Shown: piece after piece, positions 17,609-36,341 of the stretch
How positions within the stretch are numbered: position 1 is the first letter of the stretch
Layout of the letters: each line of letters opens with the position of its first letter
Source: a virus
Length of the DNA stretch: 38,012 bases
Direction: 5' to 3' (one strand)
Virus record (IMG/VR): IMGVR_UViG_3300030329_003069
Location: 1-38,012 of that record
The notes under the pieces: model-generated
Told to the model about the DNA's origin: nothing
Databases searched by the model: none
What the model saw: only the letters and a program-made list of their open reading frames with translations
Made by a program: the position numbers and the translations under genes

Positions 17609-20600
17609 ATGCCGTCTGGTAAGGACTTATTTTCTGATGTGGCGGTCGGCAGTGAATTGTCGCAAAACCCACCCACTGCCCCTGAGCGCATCACCGATTC
17701 AACTGGTCGTGTGGATTTGTTTTCCGATGTGGCAGTAGGAGCCCCATCTCCTGCGCCCACTCGCCCGTCCACACCGACTCCAGCACCAACCCATGACGAT
17801 CCAATCTTTGGGAATGAGACCCCTGTCCCAATGACAGAAATTGTGTCCAGTTATCCAATTGGAGAGGCATTTGATCTCGTCAGGGGTGATAGCTTTGATT
17901 CTGCGGATTGGGGGAGTAAGGCAGGGACGCTGGACACCCTTGCGAACAGGCTCGTGCAGGATGGCATTTACAGCAGAAAGTCCCTCCTATTCCCAAGGCA
18001 CTTGAGAGATTCTCTTGAGAGCAAGGGGTTTCATGTTGGATTCCCCATGACCCAGACCCAGTTGCTTTCTGGGGACGATGCTGGCAGTCCTGGATACCAA
18101 TGGATGCGGGGCCTTGTTGATGCTTCCAGGCCGACCCAGGAAGAGGGTGATGGCGTTCCTGGTGATCAATTGCCATCGCTTGTTCTAGACCCTGATCTTG
18201 CTCGGCGTTCCGAAAATCCAGACTACGAAGACCCTGAAAAATTTGTTGGCGCTGGGCTTGTTACCGCCGATGGGCTGGCCGATCAGTTGCGCTTAAAGGG
18301 TGTTCTTAGAAAGAAGTTCATCAATTCCCTTGAGCAGGCAGACCGGCAAAAAAGCCTCTCATCTGTGCAGATTGGGGAAGTAAGCATAGCGGATCCTGAG
18401 TCATGGTGGATCACTAAGCTGATGACAGAATTGACGGTTGGGGTGACATTCCTGCCAACATTCATGGCCGGTTCTGCGGAAACAATCGGGACAGACCTGG
18501 AGAATTGGGCGCTAAACTCCCGAAGCCCAATACCTGGCGAGGGGAACTCTCCAGAAGAAAAGGAAGTGCTGAGTGCAATTGATGGGGTGTGGGCGATCAA
18601 TTCGCTAAACTCTGCCAAGTATCCAAAAACATCCATGGCCCAAAGCATCGTCCCCACTCGCGGGGATGTGAAGCGAATCCGAGAGCAGTCTGCTGCAAGT
18701 GTTGCCAAAGAGATCGGCACCGCATTTGATATGGTCGGAAGGATTTCGAGAAGAACTGGGATACCATTCGCTGACATAATGAAGGCTCTCAGGGATGCGG
18801 AGAGGGCTTCCGGTGGAGATGAAGAGAAGCTATTTGACTACATCCGAGGGTACGTGAACTCTCAGTGGCGAGTCACAGCCCCGGAGGGTCAGAATCTCCC
18901 GCCAAACATGATCGGGAAGTCAGACACAGAGCGTCGCATACTTGCAGAGATGTTTGAGGAAGACCCGCGTAAATTCGGCAGCAGGGCTGGCATCATAACG
19001 AAGGGAGGGATGCGTAGCGAGTCTGAGGATTTGCGGATTGCGAAAGAAGTGGAGATGCGCCTGGAGAGGTACAACCAGGCAAACATTATGAAGATGGCGG
19101 AAGAGGGGGCCCTTGGCCCAGCACTTCAGGCCAGCCCAAACTCAGCGCTTGGATTGTATGGCGACGTAATGGGCGTCTACAAAGAGGGGATGTACGGAAG
19201 TGCATTCTTAAAGTTCCTTGAGCTTCAGGCCGAGTACATGGCGACAGAGATGCCGGTGAACACGGCGAAAGCAGTCGCTGCGATTATTGGTTATGGGGCC
19301 TCGTGGGGAGGCGGTGTTAAGCCGTATGAGACTCCATCCGAGTGGGATAAATTTGTCCAAGATGGCCAGGACATGTTTAGGGACCACCCCGGTCTTACCA
19401 TAATTGATTTGTGGGGCATGTCTGGGCTTGGTGGTAAGGCGTTGAAGGGCGCTTTAATGGCCCCAGAGGCAATGATGTGGGCCATGTTCCCGAGCCTCAA
19501 TGGTTTGAAGAAATCCATTCAGGATGGTGTTTCTGCGGACAAGTTATTGGCGGCAGAGATACTAGGCGCGAAGCCTGGGGTCGCGGAGAGGATTTCGGAC
19601 AGGGTTCCGGAGGCTCCTTATGCGCCAGAGCTTCCGCAGTTGATGGGGTCTGGTCCTGCTCCTTTGCTAGCGAGGGCTACTGATTACGCACTACGTGCCT
19701 CCTCCATGGGCAGGGACGCCCTGGCTGGGGGGAGAGACGCCCTAGTTGGTGGCGGGAGGGCTCTCCTTAGCGGGGATACGTACTCTGGGGCATACGACGC
19801 CATTTCAGGCGGCATATCTCATGCGGGCAGGGTCGCCCTTGCTACCGCTCTACCAGATCCAAAGATGGCGTCTAGGTACGCAAAAGAAGCCCATGATGCG
19901 GCTCCACGGCCAACTGAGATGCCGACAGGGCCGAGCCACCCTCGGGGGTTTTCCGATAGAACCAGATTGATGGAGTGGAAGAGGGACAGGAAGGGCCGAC
20001 CATCCAAGGACAACGAACTGCTCGCAGAGCTTGATAAGTTAGACACGTCAATAATGCCATACTCGTGGACAGTAGAGCTTGCCTCTCTTCTGAGGAACAG
20101 GGCTGATGCTTTCTCCAAGCAAAAGGAGATAATGCAGGGCTCTCGCGATGGCTCGAAAACGGGGAAGGCGGCAAATGAGTTCAGGGAGTCTGTCCATGAA
20201 GGGGTTGTGTATGACATCAAGCTGAGAGAGAAGATGTCAGAATTGCACTCCGCCCTTGAAGAGAGGTTCCTCGTTGCCGACTTGGAGTCATCTGCCACCA
20301 ATAAGTCAAAGGAATTGCACAGGGAGAATGTTTCCGCTGCCAGGGAAGAGGGTCGTGTGGTTGTGGATACAGACACAGGTCTTCCTTTGGCCCCTGAAGA
20401 TCCAATGGATCCAAGGAAGGCAGCAAGCGATAGGCGGGGCGACGTTGACATCGAGGCCGTCATTACAACCCCAGTTCTTGAACAGGGTGCCGCTATACGC
20501 ACAGCGGCAGAAAGGAGGGGTCAAAATAACAACGCGGTAGCGTCTGCTGTTGATGAGATATCCTCTGAGGTCTCGCGGGTGGATTCCCCTCGCAACATGC

Positions 20601-23600
20601 TTGCGCGTAGCAGGAGAGATGAGGTCAAGGATGATCTCGCGGTGGAGGGTGTCACTGATGCGTTAAACCTTGTCGGAGATGCCGTTAGCGCCGAGAGGGT
20701 TTCGGGATGGCTAGGCGAGGCCAGGGACAGCCTCTATTTGTATGAGGACTCAAAGGGTGTCATCCACGAGGTTGTAGACCCATCAAAAGCGACAATCAAA
20801 GATGATTGGACACTGCTCCCGCGAACCGAGACGAGAGGTGGGCCAACAGCTAGCGAGCGAATATTCGGTGACGCTACAATCGTTGAAAGGGGCCGCAATC
20901 GCAAATGGTTTCGGACCACAGACCCTCCCGATCCAACGACAACGCGCATCACATCCGGCGAGCCTGGGCAACAGCCAGGGGTGTTCCGAGAAAGCCTGCC
21001 TATATTTGACCTGGGCCAGAGAAGAAGTGTCGGCGCACCCACCCTTGATGTTGAGATTAGGCGGATTGATGGTGGCGTTGAGGTGACAGCCCGCCACAGC
21101 GAAGGGCGACCCGGCGACACCCTTTTCCGCTCCGTATTTGAGTTTGGCAAGGGGGGCGTTACACGAGAGAACCTGACCCTCTACATCAGAAGAGGTGTGC
21201 TGGCGCAGTACATGAAGTCAATCGCCGGTAGAGCGAAGAAAACCCAAGAGAGAATTGAGAATACAGGAGTTGAGCCCACTGGCTACCTGTACGATCCATC
21301 AATTGGCATTTCAGCGGATAAAATTCTCAGCGTTGCAAATCAAATGAAGAACATGGACGTCTTTAGCCCCATTGGGGATATTCAAAAGATGTTCATTGAC
21401 GAGGGATTTGTAGCTGGAGAGACCCCATCAACCCCCGCGCAACTCTCCCTAAAAGAGTTCCGCGCAGCCCGAGAGGCTGGGGGTGGCGATAAATTCTTGG
21501 TAGACCCGGTGGCCGTTGTTGGCGAGGATGTAGCCAGGTCTCTTGATATGGCAGAGGCGCGCATTGCGTTAGAGAAGGGTTTTGTCAACCTTTCTGAGGC
21601 GACAAACATCCCAGACAATGCTGGAGTGCTGGATGTTGCAGACTTGGCAGCTTATCGCGCAAACCTAACACCACAAATGAGGGCGTCAGAGTTAGTTGCT
21701 CGCGGGCTTGGCGACTTTGCCACCTTTGAATATATGAGTAGCAGGAGAACATGGGACACTGCTGGTGATTGGGCGGATTGGGGGGCCTACCCGGACACAT
21801 CGCAGTATCTGGCGTGGAGGGCGATGAAGAACAGGTCTGGCGGTAAGGGTGCGGTTGATTATGCCAGTGAGTACAACAAGGCCCTGACGGACGCTGCCAC
21901 GAGGGATGGGTTGACGCCTGTGCAATGGCTTGTCAAGAATTCAAGGGAGCAGCGAGCGGAGTCTATGATCAGGGCGGGCATATCAGATGCCTCCATCTAT
22001 GAGCAGATTGGATTTAGCGCAGCGGAGGCATCGTCGCTCGCGCTATCAGGGAACACCCTTCACCCCAAACCCGTCACTATCCCAAAGACCCCCTTCTCTG
22101 CCGCAAAGGTTGTGGCAGGGACTACTCCAGCAAAAGCAAAGAGGAAGATAAGCGAGGAGAGCGCAAAGAACATCAGGGAAACAGAGTCCGCTTTGTCAGG
22201 GAGGGAGTCCAGGACGGCGGGATATGCGCCTTCGTTTGAAGCGGATGTGCGTCCAATGTGGCACCGAATTGCCAGCGTATTCTTAGACAGGTCTGGCCTG
22301 GATATAATCTCTGGGCACAAAAAGAGCCCGTATGAAACAGGGAGCAAGAGGGCCAACATATACGCCCTGTCAGAGTTCATGGAGCGCCCATTTGCCTTTG
22401 TCAAAGCCCCTGTAACACTGCTTGATTTCGCGGGAAATCGGCTGCGAAAGAAATATGAAGGCCGCGTTGACAGCGCAGATGGGCTTTCAGGGTTTTGGGA
22501 CAATGTCATCTGGTTCTTCAGCGGGCCAAGCGCAAAGCTGGGGTATACAAACTTTCACGAACTGGCAACGGCTGGAAGGGTAGGCGGGATACTGAACGAA
22601 AGGATTTCTCCGGTACTGAGAGAGCTTGCAGGGGAGAATGTTACGTTTACAAACAAAGACATCCAACTGCTAACAGAAGCCCTCGATGCGCCATTCAAGG
22701 ATACCGGATATGCGGGGCAGTATGCGTCAGATGGGTGGCAAATAGTCGGAGCGTCTGACAAGCAGTTTATATTTACAGATAAGTATGCAAACCGGGTTGT
22801 GGATGCCACGAAAAGGTGGGAGAAAGAGTTCATCATAGAGGACGCAAACGGGAACAAAACAAGGTTGACCGACTTTGCGGACAAGTACGCGAACTTTGAG
22901 GGAAGGCGAATAACTGTTGATGCCCTGCAAGATATGGTTCGTTTTGGGGAGATAACCATCCAAAGGGCTCAGAGGGGTGTTCGTGGATTTGAGTATCGCC
23001 ACAAAGAGGGGATGCAATGGAGTGATCTGACAGACCAGCAAAAAAGCATCCTCCTCATTGCGAATAGGCTCACTGCGCCATTGGATACGGCGTTCTTTGA
23101 CTCAGCGATACAGCTAGCAACGAGCCCAGAGGGGATGAGACTAACCCTCGGAAGCGGCGATGTGGCGAGGCTTGACCCGCTACTCAATGCATCAAAGGCC
23201 AACATCATCAAGATGGCCTCCAATTGGATGTCTGATTTCTATGACCCTCGTGGGGCGTTCTCTTTCCTGGTTGACACGCTTCACAAGATGGCGAAAACGG
23301 GTATCGACCCAAGCTCTCTCGACGGCCCAGGCGGTACAGCGGCTGGAATGGACGTGATGCTAGGACGTGTTGCGCCCGGTGGCGGCACTCGTGAGATATC
23401 AATATCAACCATAAGAAAGTACCCAAATCATTTCACAACCAAGAGACTGAAAAAGCGCTTGGAGGATTGGAACATTGGGCCAATCACTGAGGAGTTAGAT
23501 GGCATTGGAGTTCTACCCGCATCCAGGGAGAGGCTGCTTCAGTTGCAGCCAGAGCTTGGATTGTCTGAGATTGTCGAGTTGTGGAACAGTCCAACTTCTG

Positions 23601-26062
23601 GCGCTGCGTTTAGAAAGCAGTTTGGGGTTGGTGGTGGCCCGCCAGCAGTTGTTGAGCGGTATTACAACTCCCGCATTTGGGACAAGTATCTGACATACGA
23701 CGAGAAGATAGAGTGGGGCTTGTGGGACTTGAGAGAGGCTGCATCGAAGGCTTCACTTGATATGGGGTCTGCCCTTGCCCACCAGAAGTTGATTGTTGGA
23801 ATGCGAGAGTCTGGAATGCTGCTAACACATTCCGAGTGGCACTCTCTAAAGAGGGATGCAGCAAAGGATGCGGAGGCCGTCTTTGGCCGTGACTCTAGCG
23901 GGGCCAGATTGTCTGCCGAGAGGATGCAGAGATTGCATGACCAATATGTGAACCCAGGCGAGGGCTTTGCCGACATAGGCGGCCCAAAGGTTTGGGACGA
24001 GCTTAGTAATGAGTTCGTCATTCACAAGGCAATCCGTAAGCATATATACGAGCAGGCAAAGATGTTTGAGTCCATGAAGAGTGGGCTATCAAGAGCGCAC
24101 CAGAATATTAAGCTGGGCCTTGTCTTTGACCCGATTGGCGGGACGTTATTGCGCAACTATTTTTCCAATAGGTGGATGATGGGCTTGATGGCCGATATCC
24201 CGTGGAATCAGCGACACAATAAATCTGCCAACCGCATGATCAAGGACTTCTATGAGCGCGGAATTATTGACCCTCTCTATATGGAGATCCGGCAGAACGG
24301 CTACGGAAAGGCCACGGCAGCGGCGACTGAGTTCCAGACTGCGGAAGCGTTCATGAAGATGGACTTGCAGATGTCTGAGATGTCTGCGGGATTGACTGAC
24401 GGGCTGCTTGAGGCCGGGGTTTCCCCGGAAAAGGTGCAGCGGTTTGGAGACATGCTCTGGTATGGTGCCGGGGCGACCAAGGCCAGAAGGGCCAAGAAGA
24501 GCCGTGTGATTGGTGAGGGGATAGCCCCGGAAGAAGCATTTCTCCGTCAATTACGCATGCACGAGCAGAGGTCGCCCCTTGGTGATTGGACAGGCAGGGG
24601 TGGGCTTGAGGGAACGAGGACTGCGTCAACTGCTGACAGGATTGGGCGTAAGGCGTCTGAGGCGAAGCGATGGATGGTGGAGGAGTACGGCATAATCGAC
24701 GACACCGCCAAACTCAGCTATATTCTACAGCTTGTAAAAGACCACCATTATTCCGTAAAAGAGGCCATCAAGGCGGCAGACAAGGCATTTATGGCCTACG
24801 ATGACGTTGCCCCCATGATAAACCTGCTCAGGAACAATGCTAGCGGTGCAATCCTCTCCTCTCCGTTCATCGTGTTCGCAGCAAAGGCCGCGTCCAAGGC
24901 CCTTGAGTTTATGGCAGACCACCCTGGTCGCGGGTTTGTCGCCACAAACCTACTACAGGCTTATTCACACGCAGTTTCTGCCATGATTAACTACGACAAG
25001 GAAGAGATACTTAGCCTGATGTTAGATGACAACAAGGTTCTTCTTCCGACCATTGGTTCGCAGGAAACTCTCCGCAGGAGGGGCAGTCGCTCTCGCTCGG
25101 TTGACCCCGGAAAACTCATCGGGGAAAGAGACCTGTCTCTCATGGAGAGTGGGCCAAAGGCTGTTGATATTGGCTTATGGCAGTTTTGGTGGAGGCAATT
25201 GGCGGATGGGGAGAGGGGGGCTCGCCAGGTGGATTCCCCGCTGCTAAAGTCTCTCGCAATGATCAGCGCATTCACTGGCGGTACTGCCCCATGGGGAGAG
25301 GTAATGGCCAATGCGATGCACCCACATAGGGCAAAAAAGATAGATAGGGAGTTGGAGGAGGAGGGGTTCAGGAATCCAGCGGACTCGACAATTGAGAGCT
25401 TTACTCGACATGCCGCAAAGGTATTCGATCCGGTATTGCCGTCTGCCTACCGGTCTGGTGCCAAGCTAGCAAGTGCTATTTTGGGCGAGAGTGTTGGTGG
25501 GCAGAGGGGTAAGATGGTCGAGAGGGTGTCAACCTTCACCGGGGTAAAGGAGACGATTGTTGACAGGAATAAGGCCCTTCTAGATGCGGAGAGGAACGTC
25601 GAGTTTGCCCTCAACGCTCTAATAAAAGAGTATCATTCACTCAATGATGACCGCCTGGATTGGACGCGGGAGAATAGTGGAGAAGCATTCCCGCAACAGG
25701 ATAGACTGAATGATCTTAAATGGGTCTATGAAAACAGCAAGCACATAAAGCGCGGAATCAAGTCGGAGAAAAACGCCAAAATAATACTCAATTATAGAGA
25801 GTGGTTGCCAAAGATGTACACATTGTTGGAGGATGTCGATGGTATGGCACTTAACAGCGCGCTGTTGCGCATCCAGAAGGGCGCGGAAAGAAGTGACCTG
25901 TCAGAGCGGGAGAGAAGAGCCTTCGACTCTCACGAGCAGAGAGAGTCCATGCAGAAGGCGCTCCGGGGTATTGGTGCAATAGCGCAGGAGATCGGAATCG
26001 GAGGAAGCGGAGAGGCCGCAATCCCGTACCTGTTTGAAGAGGCGGCAGGTGGACCGCAATAA
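17609..26062 (+). CDS. Giant polyvalent/internal virion-like protein (2,817 aa)
   Basis: An 8.45-kb gene with a GGGAGA ribosome site. The N-terminus carries the nonapeptide DLFSDVAVG twice (residues 6-14 and 36-44) in a Pro-rich, disordered segment. Helical and charged regions follow, with two hydrophobic stretches (about 270-295 and 545-570). A long low-complexity, highly charged middle runs from about 750 to 1540. A large, mostly helical C-terminal part (about 1545-2817) has segments typical of phage 'large polyvalent proteins' (FMAYDDVAPMINLLRNNASG, SSPFIVFAAKAASKALEFMA). Such proteins are packaged and ejected with the DNA. No RNA polymerase, transglycosylase or protease motif could be found by eye. 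It takes up about 22% of the window. Confidence 0.75.
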   Translation: MPSGKDLFSDVAVGSELSQNPPTAPERITDSTGRVDLFSDVAVGAPSPAPTRPSTPTPAPTHDDPIFGNETPVPMTEIVSSYPIGEAFDLVRGDSFDSADWGSKAGTLDTLANRLVQDGIYSRKSLLFPRHLRDSLESKGFHVGFPMTQTQLLSGDDAGSPGYQWMRGLVDASRPTQEEGDGVPGDQLPSLVLDPDLARRSENPDYEDPEKFVGAGLVTADGLADQLRLKGVLRKKFINSLEQADRQKSLSSVQIGEVSIADPESWWITKLMTELTVGVTFLPTFMAGSAETIGTDLENWALNSRSPIPGEGNSPEEKEVLSAIDGVWAINSLNSAKYPKTSMAQSIVPTRGDVKRIREQSAASVAKEIGTAFDMVGRISRRTGIPFADIMKALRDAERASGGDEEKLFDYIRGYVNSQWRVTAPEGQNLPPNMIGKSDTERRILAEMFEEDPRKFGSRAGIITKGGMRSESEDLRIAKEVEMRLERYNQANIMKMAEEGALGPALQASPNSALGLYGDVMGVYKEGMYGSAFLKFLELQAEYMATEMPVNTAKAVAAIIGYGASWGGGVKPYETPSEWDKFVQDGQDMFRDHPGLTIIDLWGMSGLGGKALKGALMAPEAMMWAMFPSLNGLKKSIQDGVSADKLLAAEILGAKPGVAERISDRVPEAPYAPELPQLMGSGPAPLLARATDYALRASSMGRDALAGGRDALVGGGRALLSGDTYSGAYDAISGGISHAGRVALATALPDPKMASRYAKEAHDAAPRPTEMPTGPSHPRGFSDRTRLMEWKRDRKGRPSKDNELLAELDKLDTSIMPYSWTVELASLLRNRADAFSKQKEIMQGSRDGSKTGKAANEFRESVHEGVVYDIKLREKMSELHSALEERFLVADLESSATNKSKELHRENVSAAREEGRVVVDTDTGLPLAPEDPMDPRKAASDRRGDVDIEAVITTPVLEQGAAIRTAAERRGQNNNAVASAVDEISSEVSRVDSPRNMLARSRRDEVKDDLAVEGVTDALNLVGDAVSAERVSGWLGEARDSLYLYEDSKGVIHEVVDPSKATIKDDWTLLPRTETRGGPTASERIFGDATIVERGRNRKWFRTTDPPDPTTTRITSGEPGQQPGVFRESLPIFDLGQRRSVGAPTLDVEIRRIDGGVEVTARHSEGRPGDTLFRSVFEFGKGGVTRENLTLYIRRGVLAQYMKSIAGRAKKTQERIENTGVEPTGYLYDPSIGISADKILSVANQMKNMDVFSPIGDIQKMFIDEGFVAGETPSTPAQLSLKEFRAAREAGGGDKFLVDPVAVVGEDVARSLDMAEARIALEKGFVNLSEATNIPDNAGVLDVADLAAYRANLTPQMRASELVARGLGDFATFEYMSSRRTWDTAGDWADWGAYPDTSQYLAWRAMKNRSGGKGAVDYASEYNKALTDAATRDGLTPVQWLVKNSREQRAESMIRAGISDASIYEQIGFSAAEASSLALSGNTLHPKPVTIPKTPFSAAKVVAGTTPAKAKRKISEESAKNIRETESALSGRESRTAGYAPSFEADVRPMWHRIASVFLDRSGLDIISGHKKSPYETGSKRANIYALSEFMERPFAFVKAPVTLLDFAGNRLRKKYEGRVDSADGLSGFWDNVIWFFSGPSAKLGYTNFHELATAGRVGGILNERISPVLRELAGENVTFTNKDIQLLTEALDAPFKDTGYAGQYASDGWQIVGASDKQFIFTDKYANRVVDATKRWEKEFIIEDANGNKTRLTDFADKYANFEGRRITVDALQDMVRFGEITIQRAQRGVRGFEYRHKEGMQWSDLTDQQKSILLIANRLTAPLDTAFFDSAIQLATSPEGMRLTLGSGDVARLDPLLNASKANIIKMASNWMSDFYDPRGAFSFLVDTLHKMAKTGIDPSSLDGPGGTAAGMDVMLGRVAPGGGTREISISTIRKYPNHFTTKRLKKRLEDWNIGPITEELDGIGVLPASRERLLQLQPELGLSEIVELWNSPTSGAAFRKQFGVGGGPPAVVERYYNSRIWDKYLTYDEKIEWGLWDLREAASKASLDMGSALAHQKLIVGMRESGMLLTHSEWHSLKRDAAKDAEAVFGRDSSGARLSAERMQRLHDQYVNPGEGFADIGGPKVWDELSNEFVIHKAIRKHIYEQAKMFESMKSGLSRAHQNIKLGLVFDPIGGTLLRNYFSNRWMMGLMADIPWNQRHNKSANRMIKDFYERGIIDPLYMEIRQNGYGKATAAATEFQTAEAFMKMDLQMSEMSAGLTDGLLEAGVSPEKVQRFGDMLWYGAGATKARRAKKSRVIGEGIAPEEAFLRQLRMHEQRSPLGDWTGRGGLEGTRTASTADRIGRKASEAKRWMVEEYGIIDDTAKLSYILQLVKDHHYSVKEAIKAADKAFMAYDDVAPMINLLRNNASGAILSSPFIVFAAKAASKALEFMADHPGRGFVATNLLQAYSHAVSAMINYDKEEILSLMLDDNKVLLPTIGSQETLRRRGSRSRSVDPGKLIGERDLSLMESGPKAVDIGLWQFWWRQLADGERGARQVDSPLLKSLAMISAFTGGTAPWGEVMANAMHPHRAKKIDRELEEEGFRNPADSTIESFTRHAAKVFDPVLPSAYRSGAKLASAILGESVGGQRGKMVERVSTFTGVKETIVDRNKALLDAERNVEFALNALIKEYHSLNDDRLDWTRENSGEAFPQQDRLNDLKWVYENSKHIKRGIKSEKNAKIILNYREWLPKMYTLLEDVDGMALNSALLRIQKGAERSDLSERERRAFDSHEQRESMQKALRGIGAIAQEIGIGGSGEAAIPYLFEEAAGGPQ

Positions 26063-26760: not shown

Positions 26761-27045
26761 ATGAGAAGCGACGGAATGCCTAGTGGCAAGCCATCATGTT
26801 TGGTGGTTGACTTGTCTGAGATGGAGAAGAAGGTCTCTTCTTTGGAGAAGAAGGTCGCCACCCTCCAGGGTCAACTCGTTGACCTTGCCTCTGTGGTGTC
26901 CACAGTGCTTAACCAGCAGAAGGCTGCTGATAAGAAGCCTGCGGCTCCCAAGGTATCTCCTCCAGCCCCCAAGCCAGTGGCCAAGAAGGCTCCGGTTAAG
27001 AAGGCTGTTGTCAAGAAGAAGCCAGCGACTAAGAAGAAGAAATGA
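26761..27045 (+). CDS. Coiled-coil protein with histone-H1-like Lys/Pro tail (94 aa)
   Basis: The GGAGCACTT leader is a good ribosome site. Residues about 18-52 form a heptad coiled coil (SEMEKKVSSLEKKVATLQGQ). Residues 56-94 are almost entirely Lys, Pro, Ala and Val (APKPVAKKAPVKKAVV, ending KKKPATKKKK). This tail is like the disordered C-terminal domain of histone H1 or the repetitive tails of bacterial Hc1/Hc2. An oligomerising coil plus cationic tail suits DNA or RNA binding, or condensation of packaged DNA. Its stop overlaps the next gene (ATGA). Similar tails are also found in non-histone proteins, so the role is inferred. Confidence 0.65.
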   Translation: MRSDGMPSGKPSCLVVDLSEMEKKVSSLEKKVATLQGQLVDLASVVSTVLNQQKAADKKPAAPKVSPPAPKPVAKKAPVKKAVVKKKPATKKKK

Positions 27046-31272: not shown

Positions 31273-31502
31273 TGTATTGCATCCATTGTTTCGCATGCCA
31301 ATATGAACATTCCAATCGCTGGCAATGCCAGATGGAATGGTTTTGGGCGGAAGTGGGGCTCTGCCAGCTTCAACATTGGGCTTACTATTGGGTCCAGGCG
31401 GTGTGTTTTCTTTAACTCTCTGTAGCTTTTCCCTGCCTTCCATATTATTAAGTAGTCTTCTGCTGGTATTAGAATAAGTAAGGCTCCTATCATCCACCAC
31501 AT
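31269..31502 (-). CDS. Small two-TM membrane protein in replication operon (77 aa)
   Basis: The ATG at 31502 overlaps the helicase stop as TGATG, with AGGGAG about six bases upstream. Two hydrophobic segments (WWMIGALLILIP at 2-13, continuing to residue 21, and HLALPAIGMFILAC at 57-70) flank a basic cytoplasmic-like loop (KAGKSYRELKKTHRL). The overlapping longer frame in the same strand has Pro-rich, unstructured sequence and no such start. It may tether replication proteins to the membrane, but this is inferred only from position. Confidence 0.6.
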   Translation of the reverse strand: MWWMIGALLILIPAEDYLIIWKAGKSYRELKKTHRLDPIVSPMLKLAEPHFRPKPFHLALPAIGMFILACETMDAIQ

Positions 31503-32857
31503 CACATCTCCCTTATCTGGCATCCTGCCGGATCAAAGTAATACTCAATCGCTTTCGACTCCCCCTGCTTGCACTTCTCCACGTTCACAATCAGCTTGTT
31601 GAACTCCCTGTCTTGCTGCTCAGTCGAGACCCTTGGGTCTCTGTATGGCCTGTACAAAATGGCCCCCACGTAACACTTCTGCTCCGCAGCACCCATCCAT
31701 TCGACATTCCTCAGCCCTGGCTTTACTGATATCGGCTCCATCTCCCATTGGCGGTTCAATTGGGCGGTTATCATCAGCGGAACCTGGAGCCTCTCTGCCT
31801 CGCGCTCCATCATCGCCCAGGCATACTCCAAGAAGTCACGCCTTGAACGGCTGTCCGTAGACCCCGCATAGATGGCTTGCAGATAGTCGATCCAGATTAT
31901 CTCCACCCCCTTGCGCACAACCAAGTCATTGAGAATGCGCAGCACATCCACAAGACGCGCTCCCTTAGCATCTACAAGCTCAATGTTATCAAGGTGTGTG
32001 ACGTGTGAGGTATTCGATATGGCAACCTCTTCCTCCTCTGACAGGGGCGCTGTGTCCTCCCCAGGGCTCGATAGGACTGCATCCCTAATGCGCCTCAACT
32101 GGACCCCGGATACGCGGGAGATCCAACGAGAGGCCCACACACTAGGACTGTCCTCCAAACCAATCACACCCACCTTATGACCAGCCATAGCCTGATGGCT
32201 GACCACCTGTGAGACCCACGAGGACTTACCGTGTGACGTCCGCGCAGCCCAGAGGTAGGTGCACCCAGGAACCAACGTGCCAATCGTCTCGTCGAGCTTT
32301 GCAAAGCCTGTCTTTATAGATGCTGCGGGTTTATTTTTCCTGTCATCCCAGATAGACTGCACAATCGACCTAACACTACCTGGCTCATACTGCGTATTGG
32401 CATGTATTGAGACGATATCCTGCTGGATATTGTTAATAGTGTCCTCTGGGCTCAGGCTTCCGTCCGTTAGCTGCCCTATTCTTGTGCATACTTTCTGGTC
32501 TATGAGCCTGGCTGTCGCATAACATTCTAGTAGGTGGTGTAGTCTTTCTGGTGAGCCTTTGATGGATGGGTCTTTGGCTGATGTCCATACTTCTTTGAGG
32601 TTGTGTATGCGTGCCTTTTCAAACTCAGCGGTGAGCACAATCTCTTCGTAGGCTACGGGGTCGAGTAGTGGATCACTCTTCCCTCGGAGGTTGATAGCCT
32701 GCTCCACCATTCGCCACAGACTAAGCATGTCTTCATTGGCGAAGATGATATGCGGTCTGTTGACGCTGAATGCGTAGCGGGGTGTGCGTATGACAGAGGC
32801 CAGGAAGTAGTGTTCAGCCCTCCATGTGAACTCCGGTTTTATCTGTGGTTGTCTCAT
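31502..32857 (-). CDS. DnaB-like replicative helicase (451 aa)
   Basis: The hexameric helicase unwinds DNA ahead of the polymerase. Visible motifs are Walker A in ARTSHGKSS (residues 205-213), Walker B IIWID (320-324) and the H3-like MITAQLNRQ (362-370), in the order and spacing of the DnaB RecA-like domain. The N-terminal domain (about 1-165) is helical and poorly conserved, as is usual. ATG 32857 (TAATG overlap with the preceding stop and GGAGATACTA ribosome site) is preferred to the upstream in-frame start at 32935. No primase domain is present, so priming must come from another protein or the host. Confidence 0.88.
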   Translation of the reverse strand: MRQPQIKPEFTWRAEHYFLASVIRTPRYAFSVNRPHIIFANEDMLSLWRMVEQAINLRGKSDPLLDPVAYEEIVLTAEFEKARIHNLKEVWTSAKDPSIKGSPERLHHLLECYATARLIDQKVCTRIGQLTDGSLSPEDTINNIQQDIVSIHANTQYEPGSVRSIVQSIWDDRKNKPAASIKTGFAKLDETIGTLVPGCTYLWAARTSHGKSSWVSQVVSHQAMAGHKVGVIGLEDSPSVWASRWISRVSGVQLRRIRDAVLSSPGEDTAPLSEEEEVAISNTSHVTHLDNIELVDAKGARLVDVLRILNDLVVRKGVEIIWIDYLQAIYAGSTDSRSRRDFLEYAWAMMEREAERLQVPLMITAQLNRQWEMEPISVKPGLRNVEWMGAAEQKCYVGAILYRPYRDPRVSTEQQDREFNKLIVNVEKCKQGESKAIEYYFDPAGCQIREM

Positions 32858-33435
32858 TAGTATCTCCAACTCGACTTTTGCTGGGTCGCAAGTTGTGTGG
32901 CAATGCGGAAGAATACGCTGAACCTGTATCCCCACTGTGCATTTTTCTTATCTTCAAAGAACAGCTTGATTGCATCATAGACCTTCTCACCCATTGAGTG
33001 ATGGAGTGACATCCAATCTTTTCGCTCTCTCCAGAAGTCGTTTTGCGCACGCAGGTAGTCAGCCCCGGTAGCCCGTAGAAAGGCTTTGTCCCAGGCTGAC
33101 ATCATTTCCCTGATGGGTACGGATTCTGGAACTGGCAGTGACCAATCGCCATGTAGTAGATGGGCGCTTGGGCTCATGTCTATTGTCCACACACCGCGCT
33201 TGTCCTCACCTTTGGTGAGTCTGATCACACCGAAAGAGCCGAGCTTGGTGATGGCGTTTTCTATCTTAGACCGGGTGGTGTTCAGCCTATCGGATAGGTC
33301 CACCGGTCTGAGAGTAAATGTCAGGTTGTCTTTCGGAGCGGCTAGAGCCGCCAGGTACACAAACACTCCAAGCCTTGTGGGTGTTGCGAACGCTGGCGAC
33401 TCCATCAACTCCCTTACGTTGATGCTGATGTCCAT
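32857..33435 (-). CDS. Winged-helix replication initiator-like protein (192 aa)
   Basis: Start 33435 overlaps the SSB stop (TAATG). Residues about 42-85 form a winged helix: LRPVDLSDRLNTTRSKIENA followed by ITKLGSFGVIRLTK, then a strand ending KRGVWTI. The C-terminal half is helical and aromatic-rich. Directly upstream of DnaB, this matches phage replication proteins that bind the origin or load the helicase (lambda O/P-like role). No sequence family is claimed. The tandem iterons near 100-300 are potential binding sites, which would have to be tested. Confidence 0.6.
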   Translation of the reverse strand: MDISINVRELMESPAFATPTRLGVFVYLAALAAPKDNLTFTLRPVDLSDRLNTTRSKIENAITKLGSFGVIRLTKGEDKRGVWTIDMSPSAHLLHGDWSLPVPESVPIREMMSAWDKAFLRATGADYLRAQNDFWRERKDWMSLHHSMGEKVYDAIKLFFEDKKNAQWGYRFSVFFRIATQLATQQKSSWRY

Positions 33436-34025
33436 TAGAACGGTAAGTCTGCATCTTGTTGGACTTCGCCAAACACTTCCCACTTCTCGCCGGATAGCTC
33501 AAAGATTGTCCCACCCATGGTGGGTTTCTTATCGTCAATCCATGCGATACAAAGTTGCTTGCCGAGTTCTGTAACGAATGAGTAGCCCTCGTCGTTAGGC
33601 TTGGGCCAGTTGATCCCATTCTTCTTATCAGAAAACGGAAAAGTTTCCCTGGGGGGGCCTTTTGGGGCCACCGGAGAAGGCTCCTTGTCTTGGTCATTGG
33701 GGTGGGCAGAGCGTTTCCTGCGCACCAATGCAACAGACTCAGCAACTACCTCTGTCTTGTACCGCTTGTTGCCATCACGGTCCATGTAGTTGGAGTTGGA
33801 TATGCGTCCCCTCAGTGACACAAGGTCTCCCTTGTTGAGGTTCCTGCAATCCTCTGCGTCATACCCCCAGGCTACGCAGCGTTGGAAGTTGGTGTACTCG
33901 TTGTCACCGACTTTGCTGGTGGTTGCGATGGTGATGTTAGCCACCGTCTTGCCACTGTTTGTCTGTTTCACATCGGGCTCGTCTGCCACGCGCCCTTCAA
34001 GTAGAACCTGATTGATATCTGCCAT
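33435..34025 (-). CDS. ssb: Single-stranded DNA-binding protein (196 aa)
   Basis: SSB coats single-stranded DNA during replication and recombination and recruits partners. The OB-fold is clear (residues 1-103: INQVLLEGRVADEPDVKQTN, VANITIATTSK, NFQRCVAWG, LVSLRGRISNSNYMDRDGNK, TEVVAESVALV), with the usual 'GR...P......G..v....iA' opening. The C-terminus is the canonical acidic tip DADLPF (191-196). Between them, instead of a plain disordered linker, residues about 138-185 look folded (YSFVTELGKQLCIAWIDD; TIFELSGEKWEVF). It has a strong GAGAAAGGGAG ribosome site. Confidence 0.9.
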   Translation of the reverse strand: MADINQVLLEGRVADEPDVKQTNSGKTVANITIATTSKVGDNEYTNFQRCVAWGYDAEDCRNLNKGDLVSLRGRISNSNYMDRDGNKRYKTEVVAESVALVRRKRSAHPNDQDKEPSPVAPKGPPRETFPFSDKKNGINWPKPNDEGYSFVTELGKQLCIAWIDDKKPTMGGTIFELSGEKWEVFGEVQQDADLPF

Positions 34026-34041: not shown

Positions 34042-34218
34042 TTATCCCATGTCGAGGGATGCCTTGCGGATCTCTTTAGCAGCGTCCCGGATCTCGGAAG
34101 CTGTCTTACGCACCCGCCGACCGGCGGCCTTGTTACCTTTGTGCTCTTGCTTTATCGCATCCGCTTTGATGGACTGTGTGAGTCCTTCCAGTTTCTCTAC
34201 CAGTGCATTCAAGCTCAT
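34042..34218 (-). CDS. Hc1-like histone H1 family protein (58 aa)
   Basis: A 58-residue frame with GGAGGAAGAG before the ATG. The core KGNKAAGRRVRKTASEIRDA followed by AKEIRKASL closely resembles the N-terminal helical domain of bacterial histone H1-like Hc1 proteins (family motif around GNKAAaqRvRk...e..ak..RkeS), known from Chlamydia and also from Bacteroidetes-type relatives. The long basic C-terminal tail of Hc1 is missing. Hc1 binds and compacts DNA. The gene sits between a terminator and ssb in the replication operon, so it probably acts on phage or host DNA during infection. Confidence 0.7.
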   Translation of the reverse strand: MSLNALVEKLEGLTQSIKADAIKQEHKGNKAAGRRVRKTASEIRDAAKEIRKASLDMG

Positions 34219-34234
34219 CTCTTCCTCCGTATAT

Positions 34235-34256
34235 AAAAAAGCTAGTCTCTCCTAGC
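34235..34256 (-). terminator. Short intrinsic terminator upstream of the Hc1-like gene
   Basis: In the leftward direction GCTAG-GAGAGA-CTAGC is followed by TTTTTT (plus-strand 34256 down to 34235). The 5-bp stem is weak but the U-run is perfect, so it may end the non-coding RNA next to it or act as partial attenuator before the histone-like, ssb and helicase genes. Confidence 0.5.
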
Positions 34257-34446
34257 AGTCACACCACTCTGGGCAGGTGTCGCAACCTATTGGCACGTCT
34301 GGGTGAGGACGACCGGGCCAAGGTCAGGGGAGTCCATGGCCCCTCGGGTCTTCCGAGTGTCACGCTGCCCAAGCAACGCTCCCAGCCCTCCAAGGTATCC
34401 CAAGGAAGGTGCCCCTGGATAACGGGGGAGCAACTCCCCGCTACCC
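34257..34446 (-). ncRNA. Structured non-coding RNA candidate (about 190 nt)
   Basis: The 228-base gap between the histone-like gene and the upstream leftward gene has no convincing frame. It holds many hairpins: CTCCCC/GGGGAG (34425-34430 with 34434-34439), a GCAACG/CGCTGC stem (34363-34368 with 34373-34378) whose G-U pair is valid only in leftward RNA, CTCGG/CCGAG (34343-34347 with 34353-34357), a nine-position stem with one mismatch (34315-34323 with 34334-34342) and ACACC/GGTGT (34261-34265 with 34276-34280). An intrinsic terminator follows. This is the pattern of a small structured RNA; no known class was recognised. Confidence 0.45.
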
Positions 34447-35493
34447 TCACCGCGCCAATGCCGACCTGATCTTGTCCATTGCCTCCACTGTCATCACATT
34501 GTGCGCATGAGCTTCGCGCACAGAGGGAAAGCCAGTGAATTCGCGGGTGACATTAGCCAACTCAATGAAGTTCACTCCGGAATTCATAATCCCATCTGTG
34601 AACTCCCGAACCATGTCCTCCGTTGCCAATGTACCAGCCTGCGGAACGCTAGGTTCCTCTGGCTGTACAATATCAGGCACAGCCTCTAGTGGGGGAGCAG
34701 CCCGCTCTACCGTTGGAGCAGGGTCACCCTCTCCCACCGTCATGCCAGATAGTAGCCGCCACTTGGCCCCACGTTTCTGACCAAACATGGCTACCTCTCC
34801 ACTATCCCTCAGCCTGGATATTGCCCCATTGAATACCCCAATGGTTAGCCCGGTGGCCTTCAGGATAGCTCCTCTTGATGCCTCACCGCCACACTCTACG
34901 AGATAGTTTCTGATGACGTCAATGGGATCTGCGCCCGTATTTGCAGATTTTGACTCAACAGGGGGCCGACTACGCTCGTAAGGTGGAGGCGCTCCCTGGC
35001 TGATCTTACGAGGAGGAGGCACCGCCACAGGAGGTTCCTTTGGCAGAGATATCTCCGTCGCAGTTGAAGCCTTCGGCTTGGGCGCATCACCGCCACTGGG
35101 ACGATTAGGAGCAGACTTCTTAAACTCGTCAGCCTCCTCCTCTGAGTACACATGCCCACTCAAACCAGCCAGCTTTAAGATGACACGGTCCTTCGCACGC
35201 TTCTCACTCATCGCCACCGGGTACTCGTTCTTACAGTTCTTAGGCGTGACCTCACCAAATGACCAAGCGCTGTTCTCTCCCAGGTGGCCACGCACAAACA
35301 TGCAGACAAGACCCTTATCCAAGTCCAGCACCTTCACATCCGGGTCATCAAAGGTGATGCCCGCCTTGTCAGCGATGCGCTCAAGGTAACGGTGGTAGAT
35401 GACCAACGTGCCTCGGCAATCCCAGCACGCACGCTGAGGGTCAATGCCGAACTGGTTGAGTATCTTCAGCACATGCTCTTCAATCTTCTTCAT
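34447..35493 (-). CDS. Conserved phage DNA-metabolism protein with winged helix (348 aa)
   Basis: Residues 1-125 carry a pattern common in phages (CWDCRGTLVIYHRYLERIAD; YPVAMSEKRAKDRVILKLAG; GHVYSEEEADEF). Its role is unproven; a recombination or single-strand annealing function has to be considered because it lies beside a nuclease and SSB. A Pro/Lys-rich linker (about 126-188) follows. Then comes a winged-helix-like domain at about 189-248 (VIRNYLVECGGEASRGAILK onwards, ending KRGAKWRLL), another linker, and a helical C-terminus (about 290-348). The GGAGGAACT ribosome site is good. It may bridge DNA to a replication protein. Confidence 0.65.
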   Translation of the reverse strand: MKKIEEHVLKILNQFGIDPQRACWDCRGTLVIYHRYLERIADKAGITFDDPDVKVLDLDKGLVCMFVRGHLGENSAWSFGEVTPKNCKNEYPVAMSEKRAKDRVILKLAGLSGHVYSEEEADEFKKSAPNRPSGGDAPKPKASTATEISLPKEPPVAVPPPRKISQGAPPPYERSRPPVESKSANTGADPIDVIRNYLVECGGEASRGAILKATGLTIGVFNGAISRLRDSGEVAMFGQKRGAKWRLLSGMTVGEGDPAPTVERAAPPLEAVPDIVQPEEPSVPQAGTLATEDMVREFTDGIMNSGVNFIELANVTREFTGFPSVREAHAHNVMTVEAMDKIRSALAR

Positions 35494-35501
35494 AGTTCCT
35501 C

Positions 35502-36341
35502 CTATGCTAGCTCCCTACAAATGTCGTAGCGCCTACACCATCTCGGTGAACACCTGCGCGCAACATGCCTCTTCTTTGTCTTGTCCCATCCACCCCATAC
35601 CATCTCGTCTGATGGGTCAGGGATCGGGGGAAGTGTCTCGTTAGTGATGTGATGCTGTATCAGATCAAACAAGTCAGTCGATGCCTCATGCACGTCCTCC
35701 CCAGCATCAAAGTGAATGAATGCCAGCCTGTCCAACTCCTCCTTCTTGTTTCCAAAGCCCCTGGTAGGGCGCTCCTTTGGATGGTAGATGACAATCATCC
35801 CACCCCACTCATACCCCGGATAGTCCAGGTCCTTCACCATCACGCCACGCTGCAACGGGTAGTCATCGTCATCCACTACGGAATACTTATACCCGGTAAG
35901 CTGCTCCTTATGGGCACGCTTGGGCTCACCATCCTTCACCACCATCGCGTACCCGTAGTTGCTCGTCGTCTTCACGTCCATCAAGTACCGCTTGCCGCCC
36001 ATTGGCAAGCCTTCAGGGATGAGCAGGATGCCATCAATATGACCCGTGATACGCTCACCCATAGGGCTAGAGGCCAACACAGATAGCTGCTGCGCAACCA
36101 CCTGGATGCCAGCCTTCTCCAGATACCTGATAACCCTGGCCTCACCCGAGTGACCCATATCAAAGGTCACCTGGTCACCCCACTCGGGGCGTGGAGGGTT
36201 GCTCCACTTATGACCCTGTGCCTGCAACACAGCGTCCCGAGCACAGCGAGACACACCACTCATGCGATGCGTGTACTCACCGTCACCTGTGGATGTAATC
36301 TTGCTAAGCACGGCCCGAGCTAACTCTACTGTCTCACTCAC
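35502..36341 (-). CDS. Cas4/AddB-type Fe-S nuclease (279 aa)
   Basis: PD-(D/E)XK exonuclease of the RecB/Cas4 type: His64-x2-Glu67 (GHSGEARV), Asp103 (HIDG), Asp122-x-Lys124 (MDVKT) and the QxxxY motif Gln147/Tyr151 (QLTGY). One N-terminal cysteine (Cys33, SRCAR) and three C-terminal ones (Cys264, Cys269, Cys275 in CSPRWCRRYDIC) match the Fe-S cluster ligands of Cas4, AddB and Dna2. It probably resects DNA ends for recombination or degrades host DNA; no CRISPR partners are nearby. It begins at GTG 36341, overlapping the 50-aa gene. Confidence 0.82.
   Translation of the reverse strand: MSETVELARAVLSKITSTGDGEYTHRMSGVSRCARDAVLQAQGHKWSNPPRPEWGDQVTFDMGHSGEARVIRYLEKAGIQVVAQQLSVLASSPMGERITGHIDGILLIPEGLPMGGKRYLMDVKTTSNYGYAMVVKDGEPKRAHKEQLTGYKYSVVDDDDYPLQRGVMVKDLDYPGYEWGGMIVIYHPKERPTRGFGNKKEELDRLAFIHFDAGEDVHEASTDLFDLIQHHITNETLPPIPDPSDEMVWGGWDKTKKRHVARRCSPRWCRRYDICRELA

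Follow-up and report, generated by a model that had tools for sequence, protein, structure and literature searches.

Chlamydial Hc1 is described as compacting DNA in passages of two articles (PMC12619734, PMC1403754), and a passage of a third, citing Pedersen 1996, assigns potential dimerization to its N-terminal part and nucleic-acid binding to its C-terminal part (PMC3469542). The same domain, Pfam family Hc1 (PF07432), is encoded by jumbo "moraphages", as reported in 2025 (PMC12619734). We found unannotated, tail-less Hc1 frames in further very large phages, one of 59 aa in Lak-A2 (LR756500; L316:601-780) and one of 57 aa in a 462-kb phage (L315:589-762), and an Hc1 match also in Lak-B2, with all three at 77-79 bits. 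The Lak megaphages are phages of Prevotella. Moraphage and Lak proteins have in common with the locus described here a phage-encoded Hc1 domain, in Lak-A2 likewise without a tail, but moraphages are jumbo phages, Lak genomes have about 540-550 kb and the other phage 462 kb, whereas the hc1 contig of this study has 38 kb.

The window, by which we mean the whole 38,012-base viral contig that was analyzed, has matches to terminase, portal/adaptor and major head proteins and carries on its minus strand, at 34042-34218, a frame of 58 codons with an ATG start, whose translation is MSLNALVEKLEGLTQSIKADAIKQEHKGNKAAGRRVRKTASEIRDAAKEIRKASLDMG. A first-pass annotation made from the letters alone had singled out this 58-aa frame for its strong ribosome site and a core resembling the helical domain of Hc1, and both observations hold: a Shine-Dalgarno GGAGG (34224..34228, minus strand, read from the sequence) stands 5 nt ahead of the ATG, and the protein scores 60.6 bits (E 1.4e-16) against PF07432, for which the cut-off is 23.5 bits, over positions 2-53 of the 57 in the model, and thus belongs to the family by score over most of its length. 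AlphaFold2, given 10 relatives as input, predicts with confidence a two-helix hairpin (pLDDT 95; helices 3-27 and 30-57), and this prediction agrees with the helical hairpin expected of PF07432. The predicted model consists of two helices only, with neither the three-helix histone fold nor the winged helix of linker histones. A PHROG search gave no convincing family for the protein, a sequence search of the PDB yielded nothing useful, and a BFVD fold search returned 543 matches, none at E <= 0.001, the fold being too simple to be informative. The pI of the window protein is about 10, and across the phage Hc1-like proteins pI ranges from 9.5 to 10.1 and net charge from +3 to +6.

Compared with chlamydial HctA/Hc1, the phage protein shares the N-terminal Hc1 domain, including a weak match to model positions 1-54 of NF051889 (chlamydial HctA) that, at 28.1 bits against an equivalog cut-off of 100, leaves it outside that equivalog, but it lacks the C-terminal nucleic-acid-binding tail: the chain terminates at residue 58, in SLDMG, and the lysine-rich extension is missing. 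Since the tail reported to bind nucleic acid is absent, coating or compaction of DNA is not transferable to the phage protein by homology.

The annotation had regarded a tail-less Hc1 as unusual, which the distribution of the family contradicts, in the Lak phages and the 462-kb phage as well as in bacteria. PF07432 was above cut-off in 87 of 148 genomes sampled from the phylum to which a Cytophagales MAG belongs (Bacteroidota, as judged from the record title). We extracted 33 proteins, namely 30 taken from among the best-scoring matches of the 148-genome draw and three from two MAGs, two of these three proteins coming from one probably mobile locus; 30 of the 33 are 57-60 aa long and none has a basic tail, so that tail-less is the ordinary form of Hc1 in the sampled Bacteroidota genomes. 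These short proteins resemble the window protein in length, in the GNKAAGxRxRK motif and in the missing tail, and the three compared with it directly are 33-47% identical to it. None of the 40 aligned phage and bacterial sequences departs from N29, A32, R35, R37, or R51, although the bacterial ones were chosen by a motif that contains three of these residues, so that only R51 and, in part, A32 are independent. The bacterial genes differ in being chromosomal, with varied neighbors at the nine Bacteroidota loci inspected that gave no functional hint. A scan with the single window protein gave matches only in two Bacteroidota MAGs. At one locus of a Cytophagales MAG (L276:1902-2627), two adjacent Hc1 genes lie right after the gene for a 624-aa protein that resembles a viral primase/helicase (subthreshold DUF5906), and this locus is probably a mobile element.

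The position of hc1 just upstream of ssb and helicase, likewise pointed out at first pass, is borne out. The block lies on the minus strand and includes, upstream of hc1, a Cas4-type exonuclease-like protein (35502..36341; PHROG 1990, 7.4e-15) and a 348-aa protein of no family (34447..35493) that keeps its position upstream of an RNA described below. After hc1, which has its own Shine-Dalgarno, come a single-stranded DNA-binding protein gene, ssb, 16 nt downstream (33435..34025; Pfam SSB 4.7e-24, PHROG 44), a 193-aa protein that is DnaD-like by position only, without a PHROG and kept in relatives (32857..33438), and a DnaB-type replicative helicase (31502..32935; Pfam DnaB_C 6.3e-25, PHROG 19). 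In the stretches that were read, the order nuclease, protein of 350 aa, RNA, hc1, ssb, protein of about 200 aa and helicase is common to five phages.

Related phage contigs were gathered through helicase and terminase searches, with one (G022) added later via the RNA, and every contig with a recognizable ssb (G003, G004, G017, and G022) has an Hc1-like frame immediately ahead of it. The four orthologs are 58-63 aa long, sit directly upstream of ssb and have no tail, and their Pfam Hc1 scores are 57.2, 39.3, 25.1, and 23.0 bits, the last of these (G004) falling slightly below the 23.5-bit cut-off and being accepted as an ortholog by synteny. The adjacent ssb is 32-44% identical across the phages in the three contigs measured. 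Among the 10 pairwise comparisons of hc1, conservation is highest at codon position 2 in seven and at position 1 in two, with one tie, and position 3 is the least conserved or tied for least in all 10. Every pair for which dS is computable has a dN smaller than dS, many dS values being saturated; at the level of sequence comparison, these patterns show purifying selection on hc1. Two further viral contigs (L002 and L003) have hc1 among other neighbors, away from ssb. Collectively, these data confirm hc1 as a real, conserved Hc1-domain gene in the replication block of a phage.

Elsewhere in the window, on the plus strand, one 2817-aa frame (17609-26062) without a PHROG match probably encodes a large virion protein, and a small late protein (26761-27045) combines a coiled-coil-like start with a lysine/alanine/proline-rich C-terminal tail resembling histone H1. 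Small tailed proteins similar to the latter are encoded on the minus strand of three related contigs (L006, L007, and L008). A search of the window for tmRNA and tRNA genes found none.

Between the 348-aa gene and hc1 lies a putative leader RNA of about 215 nt, composed of a core domain and a 3' two-hairpin module, at 34232..34455 on the minus strand of the window and at L006:8490-8701, L007:8443-8653, L056:4730-4940, and L126:5419-5630 (minus strand) in the relatives. An alignment of the interval from all five phages contains long invariant stretches, and the consensus fold of this alignment, with five pseudoknot pairs added, comprises 72 pairs in 11 helices. Paired cells make up 91.3% of the total (74.5% in shuffles, 40-46% in slid controls), 43 of the 72 pairs have changed on both sides (21.1 in shuffles, at most 16 when slid) and the covariation score is 0.681 (0.310 in shuffles, at most 0.200 when slid), in a comparison that favors the structure over its slid versions, as it was derived from the same alignment, and that draws on five related sequences, which are few. 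Because the effect is large and is seen in most of the helices, there is little doubt that this is a structured RNA. Single-sequence folding energies are modest (z -1.8 to -3.2), so that the case for structure is one of covariation.

A comparison of the window and three relatives with the 4227 covariance models of Rfam gave no match at the gathering threshold, and the best lax hit in the leader was on the opposite strand (10.3 bits, E 7.7); the RNA is apparently undescribed. Its core (34293..34455, minus strand) has a closing stem, a hairpin with a UUGC-type loop, a conserved AGGGGCA, a multi-branch domain and a possible pseudoknot, in which CAGGG and CCCUG could pair between loop and junction in all five phages; these pairs are almost invariant, which leaves the pairing unproven. 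A covariance model of the core (R2) found only the five related phages in about 1.46 Mb of loci searched. A wide core pattern occurs in at least 119 places, nearly all by chance, and its hairpin is kept together with the downstream module only in the five phages.

The 3' module (34238..34283, minus strand, 46 nt) is, unlike the core, widespread. It consists of an ACACC/GGUGU stem (stem A) followed by GAC-N and a second stem (stem B) with a GGAGAGA loop, and follows the pattern GCGACACCUGC-N-AGUGGUGUGAC-N-[stem]GGAGAGA[stem]. The window copy scores 57.9 bits against the covariance model of the module (R1), having been among the sequences used to build it. Among the matches listed, an exact upstream complement of stem A is present in 133 of 151 relaxed-core instances, against 13 after shuffling, stem B pairs in 127 of them, against 39 with randomly drawn arms, and the arms form at least 106 distinct combinations, many of the copies being related and therefore not independent events. 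In 30 aligned copies, 37 cells have changed on both sides, against 7.6 in shuffled alignments; these copies were selected for an exact stem A, whose pairing is thus partly by construction, while stem B was unselected.

Copies of the module occur in many IMG/VR loci (L034-L152) and at L154:1277-1312 and 1489-1524, L155:1478-1529, L156:1486-1524, L311:1468-1531, L312:1472-1525, L313:1492-1524, and L314:1473-1525. Many lie 10-30 nt ahead of gene starts; some copies precede tRNAs, and tandem arrangements occur as well. Among cultured phages, R1 matches MD18, CS01, Mwe-JY26, mEp390 (two copies), Medea1, and Pokken at 24.5-42.7 bits, with the second mEp390 copy at 20.5 bits, and it weakly matches P1 (18.5 bits) at a site flanked by a tRNA and ban. 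Just downstream of the module in the Cronobacter phage CS01, a stretch at L156:1534-1727 has subthreshold similarity to transfer-messenger RNA. Searched against Rfam, the module-bearing loci gave tRNA matches only. The module resembles the start of the glycine riboswitch, presumably by chance, and this resemblance found no support in Rfam. The put antiterminator RNA of phage HK022 (putL/putR), which lies in a phage transcript close to operon starts, also has two hairpins, but it does not match the module by sequence pattern, R1 has no match in HK022 and the HK022 intergenic regions are free of the motif, so we reject an identity of the two. The module's sequence strings were not found in any relevant paper of the collection searched, which is weak evidence that they are absent from the literature.

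In the window, six U residues follow the second hairpin in the manner of an intrinsic terminator (one such site was found in a scan where 0.6 were expected); in G017 this U stretch is not kept, and in G003 it is only weak, so the module does not generally serve for termination. Leader control, transcript processing and antitermination are candidate roles. For the RNA upstream of hc1, we infer a leader that controls or processes the hc1 transcript. We consider it fairly likely that this is an undescribed RNA of about 215 nt joining a group-specific core, of some eight helices and a possible pseudoknot, to a widespread 46-nt phage module, and that it would regulate or process transcripts, here those of the mini-histone, SSB and helicase.

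As for the protein, we favor, with a probability of roughly 0.45, a small basic protein that dimerizes and acts as an architectural accessory to SSB and helicase. Hc1 would be a small, basic, self-associating helical hairpin made alongside the phage replication proteins; the hairpin would most likely dimerize or oligomerize, R35, R37, and R51 would mediate weak, sequence-independent contacts with nucleic acid, and the protein would assist SSB and helicase in an architectural capacity on phage DNA as it is replicated. Co-transcription, dimerization, nucleic-acid binding and the link to SSB are all inferred here. This reading is favored because only the N-terminal part of Hc1 is present, with invariant arginines, a basic pI and adjacency to ssb: the arginines and a pI near 10 make some contact with nucleic acid plausible, and the constant position ahead of ssb speaks for a function in replication. 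However, the only relative dissected biochemically reportedly binds nucleic acid through the tail that the phage protein lacks, which makes binding by the hairpin putative. For a histone-like protein its charge is modest, the conserved arginines may have a structural role, and the adjacency to ssb is limited to one phage clade, the arrangement being different in L002 and L003.

The hairpin could instead only dimerize and bridge SSB, helicase or the 193-aa protein as an adaptor that binds no nucleic acid. In chlamydial Hc1, the part homologous to the hairpin is described as a site of dimerization and not as the one that binds DNA (title cited in PMC3469542), and adjacency to ssb is strict in five of five phages, but three invariant arginines and a pI near 10 would be surplus to a pure adaptor, and we hold this to be rather unlikely, though the next most probable reading.

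Interference with the host, in which the phage protein would form mixed dimers with a host Hc1-domain protein, or mimic it, and so alter the host nucleoid, would fit the many Bacteroidota that encode at least one Hc1 protein of the same size with the same invariant residues. Host Hc1 proteins are also tail-less, which leaves no room for simple poisoning by a partner that has lost its tail, and the host is not established as Bacteroidota. The Hc1 domain had been offered as a clue to the host lineage and hints at Bacteroidota, but the clue is not supported once the other evidence is weighed: the 3' module of the RNA is present in phages infecting Phaeobacter, Cronobacter, Escherichia, Pseudomonas, and Stenotrophomonas (Proteobacteria) and of Microcystis (cyanobacteria), and was found in none of 99 Bacteroidota-phylum genomes in a search that had no positive control, while terminase matches are remote and mixed, mostly to Vibrio phages, and helicase matches are remote and mostly to Staphylococcus phages. 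We consider host interference improbable. Least probable, by a little, is the original proposal that Hc1 coats phage DNA, condenses the nucleoid or aids ejection in the manner of a histone or packaged protein, which was borrowed from the DNA-compacting chlamydial member of the family (as described in passages of PMC12619734 and PMC1403754) and is close to a suggestion made by the jumbo-phage authors (PMC12619734), but sits poorly with the missing tail, with the place of hc1 in the replication block and not the virion block, and with the separate histone-H1-like, lysine-tailed protein among the late genes of the same phage.

The protein adds small-genome phages, with hc1 fixed beside ssb, to the known carriers of tail-less Hc1 domains. 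Tail-less Hc1 is common in Bacteroidota, where we found no description of what this form does, and the five syntenic examples offer a tractable means of asking. Between protein and RNA, the novelty lies more with the structured RNA: base pairs that covary strongly, in a molecule that Rfam does not match, point to a class of structured RNAs in phages, its module recurs across phages with several kinds of host, some of them in culture, and can thus be tested in the laboratory, and the RNA may matter more than the protein.
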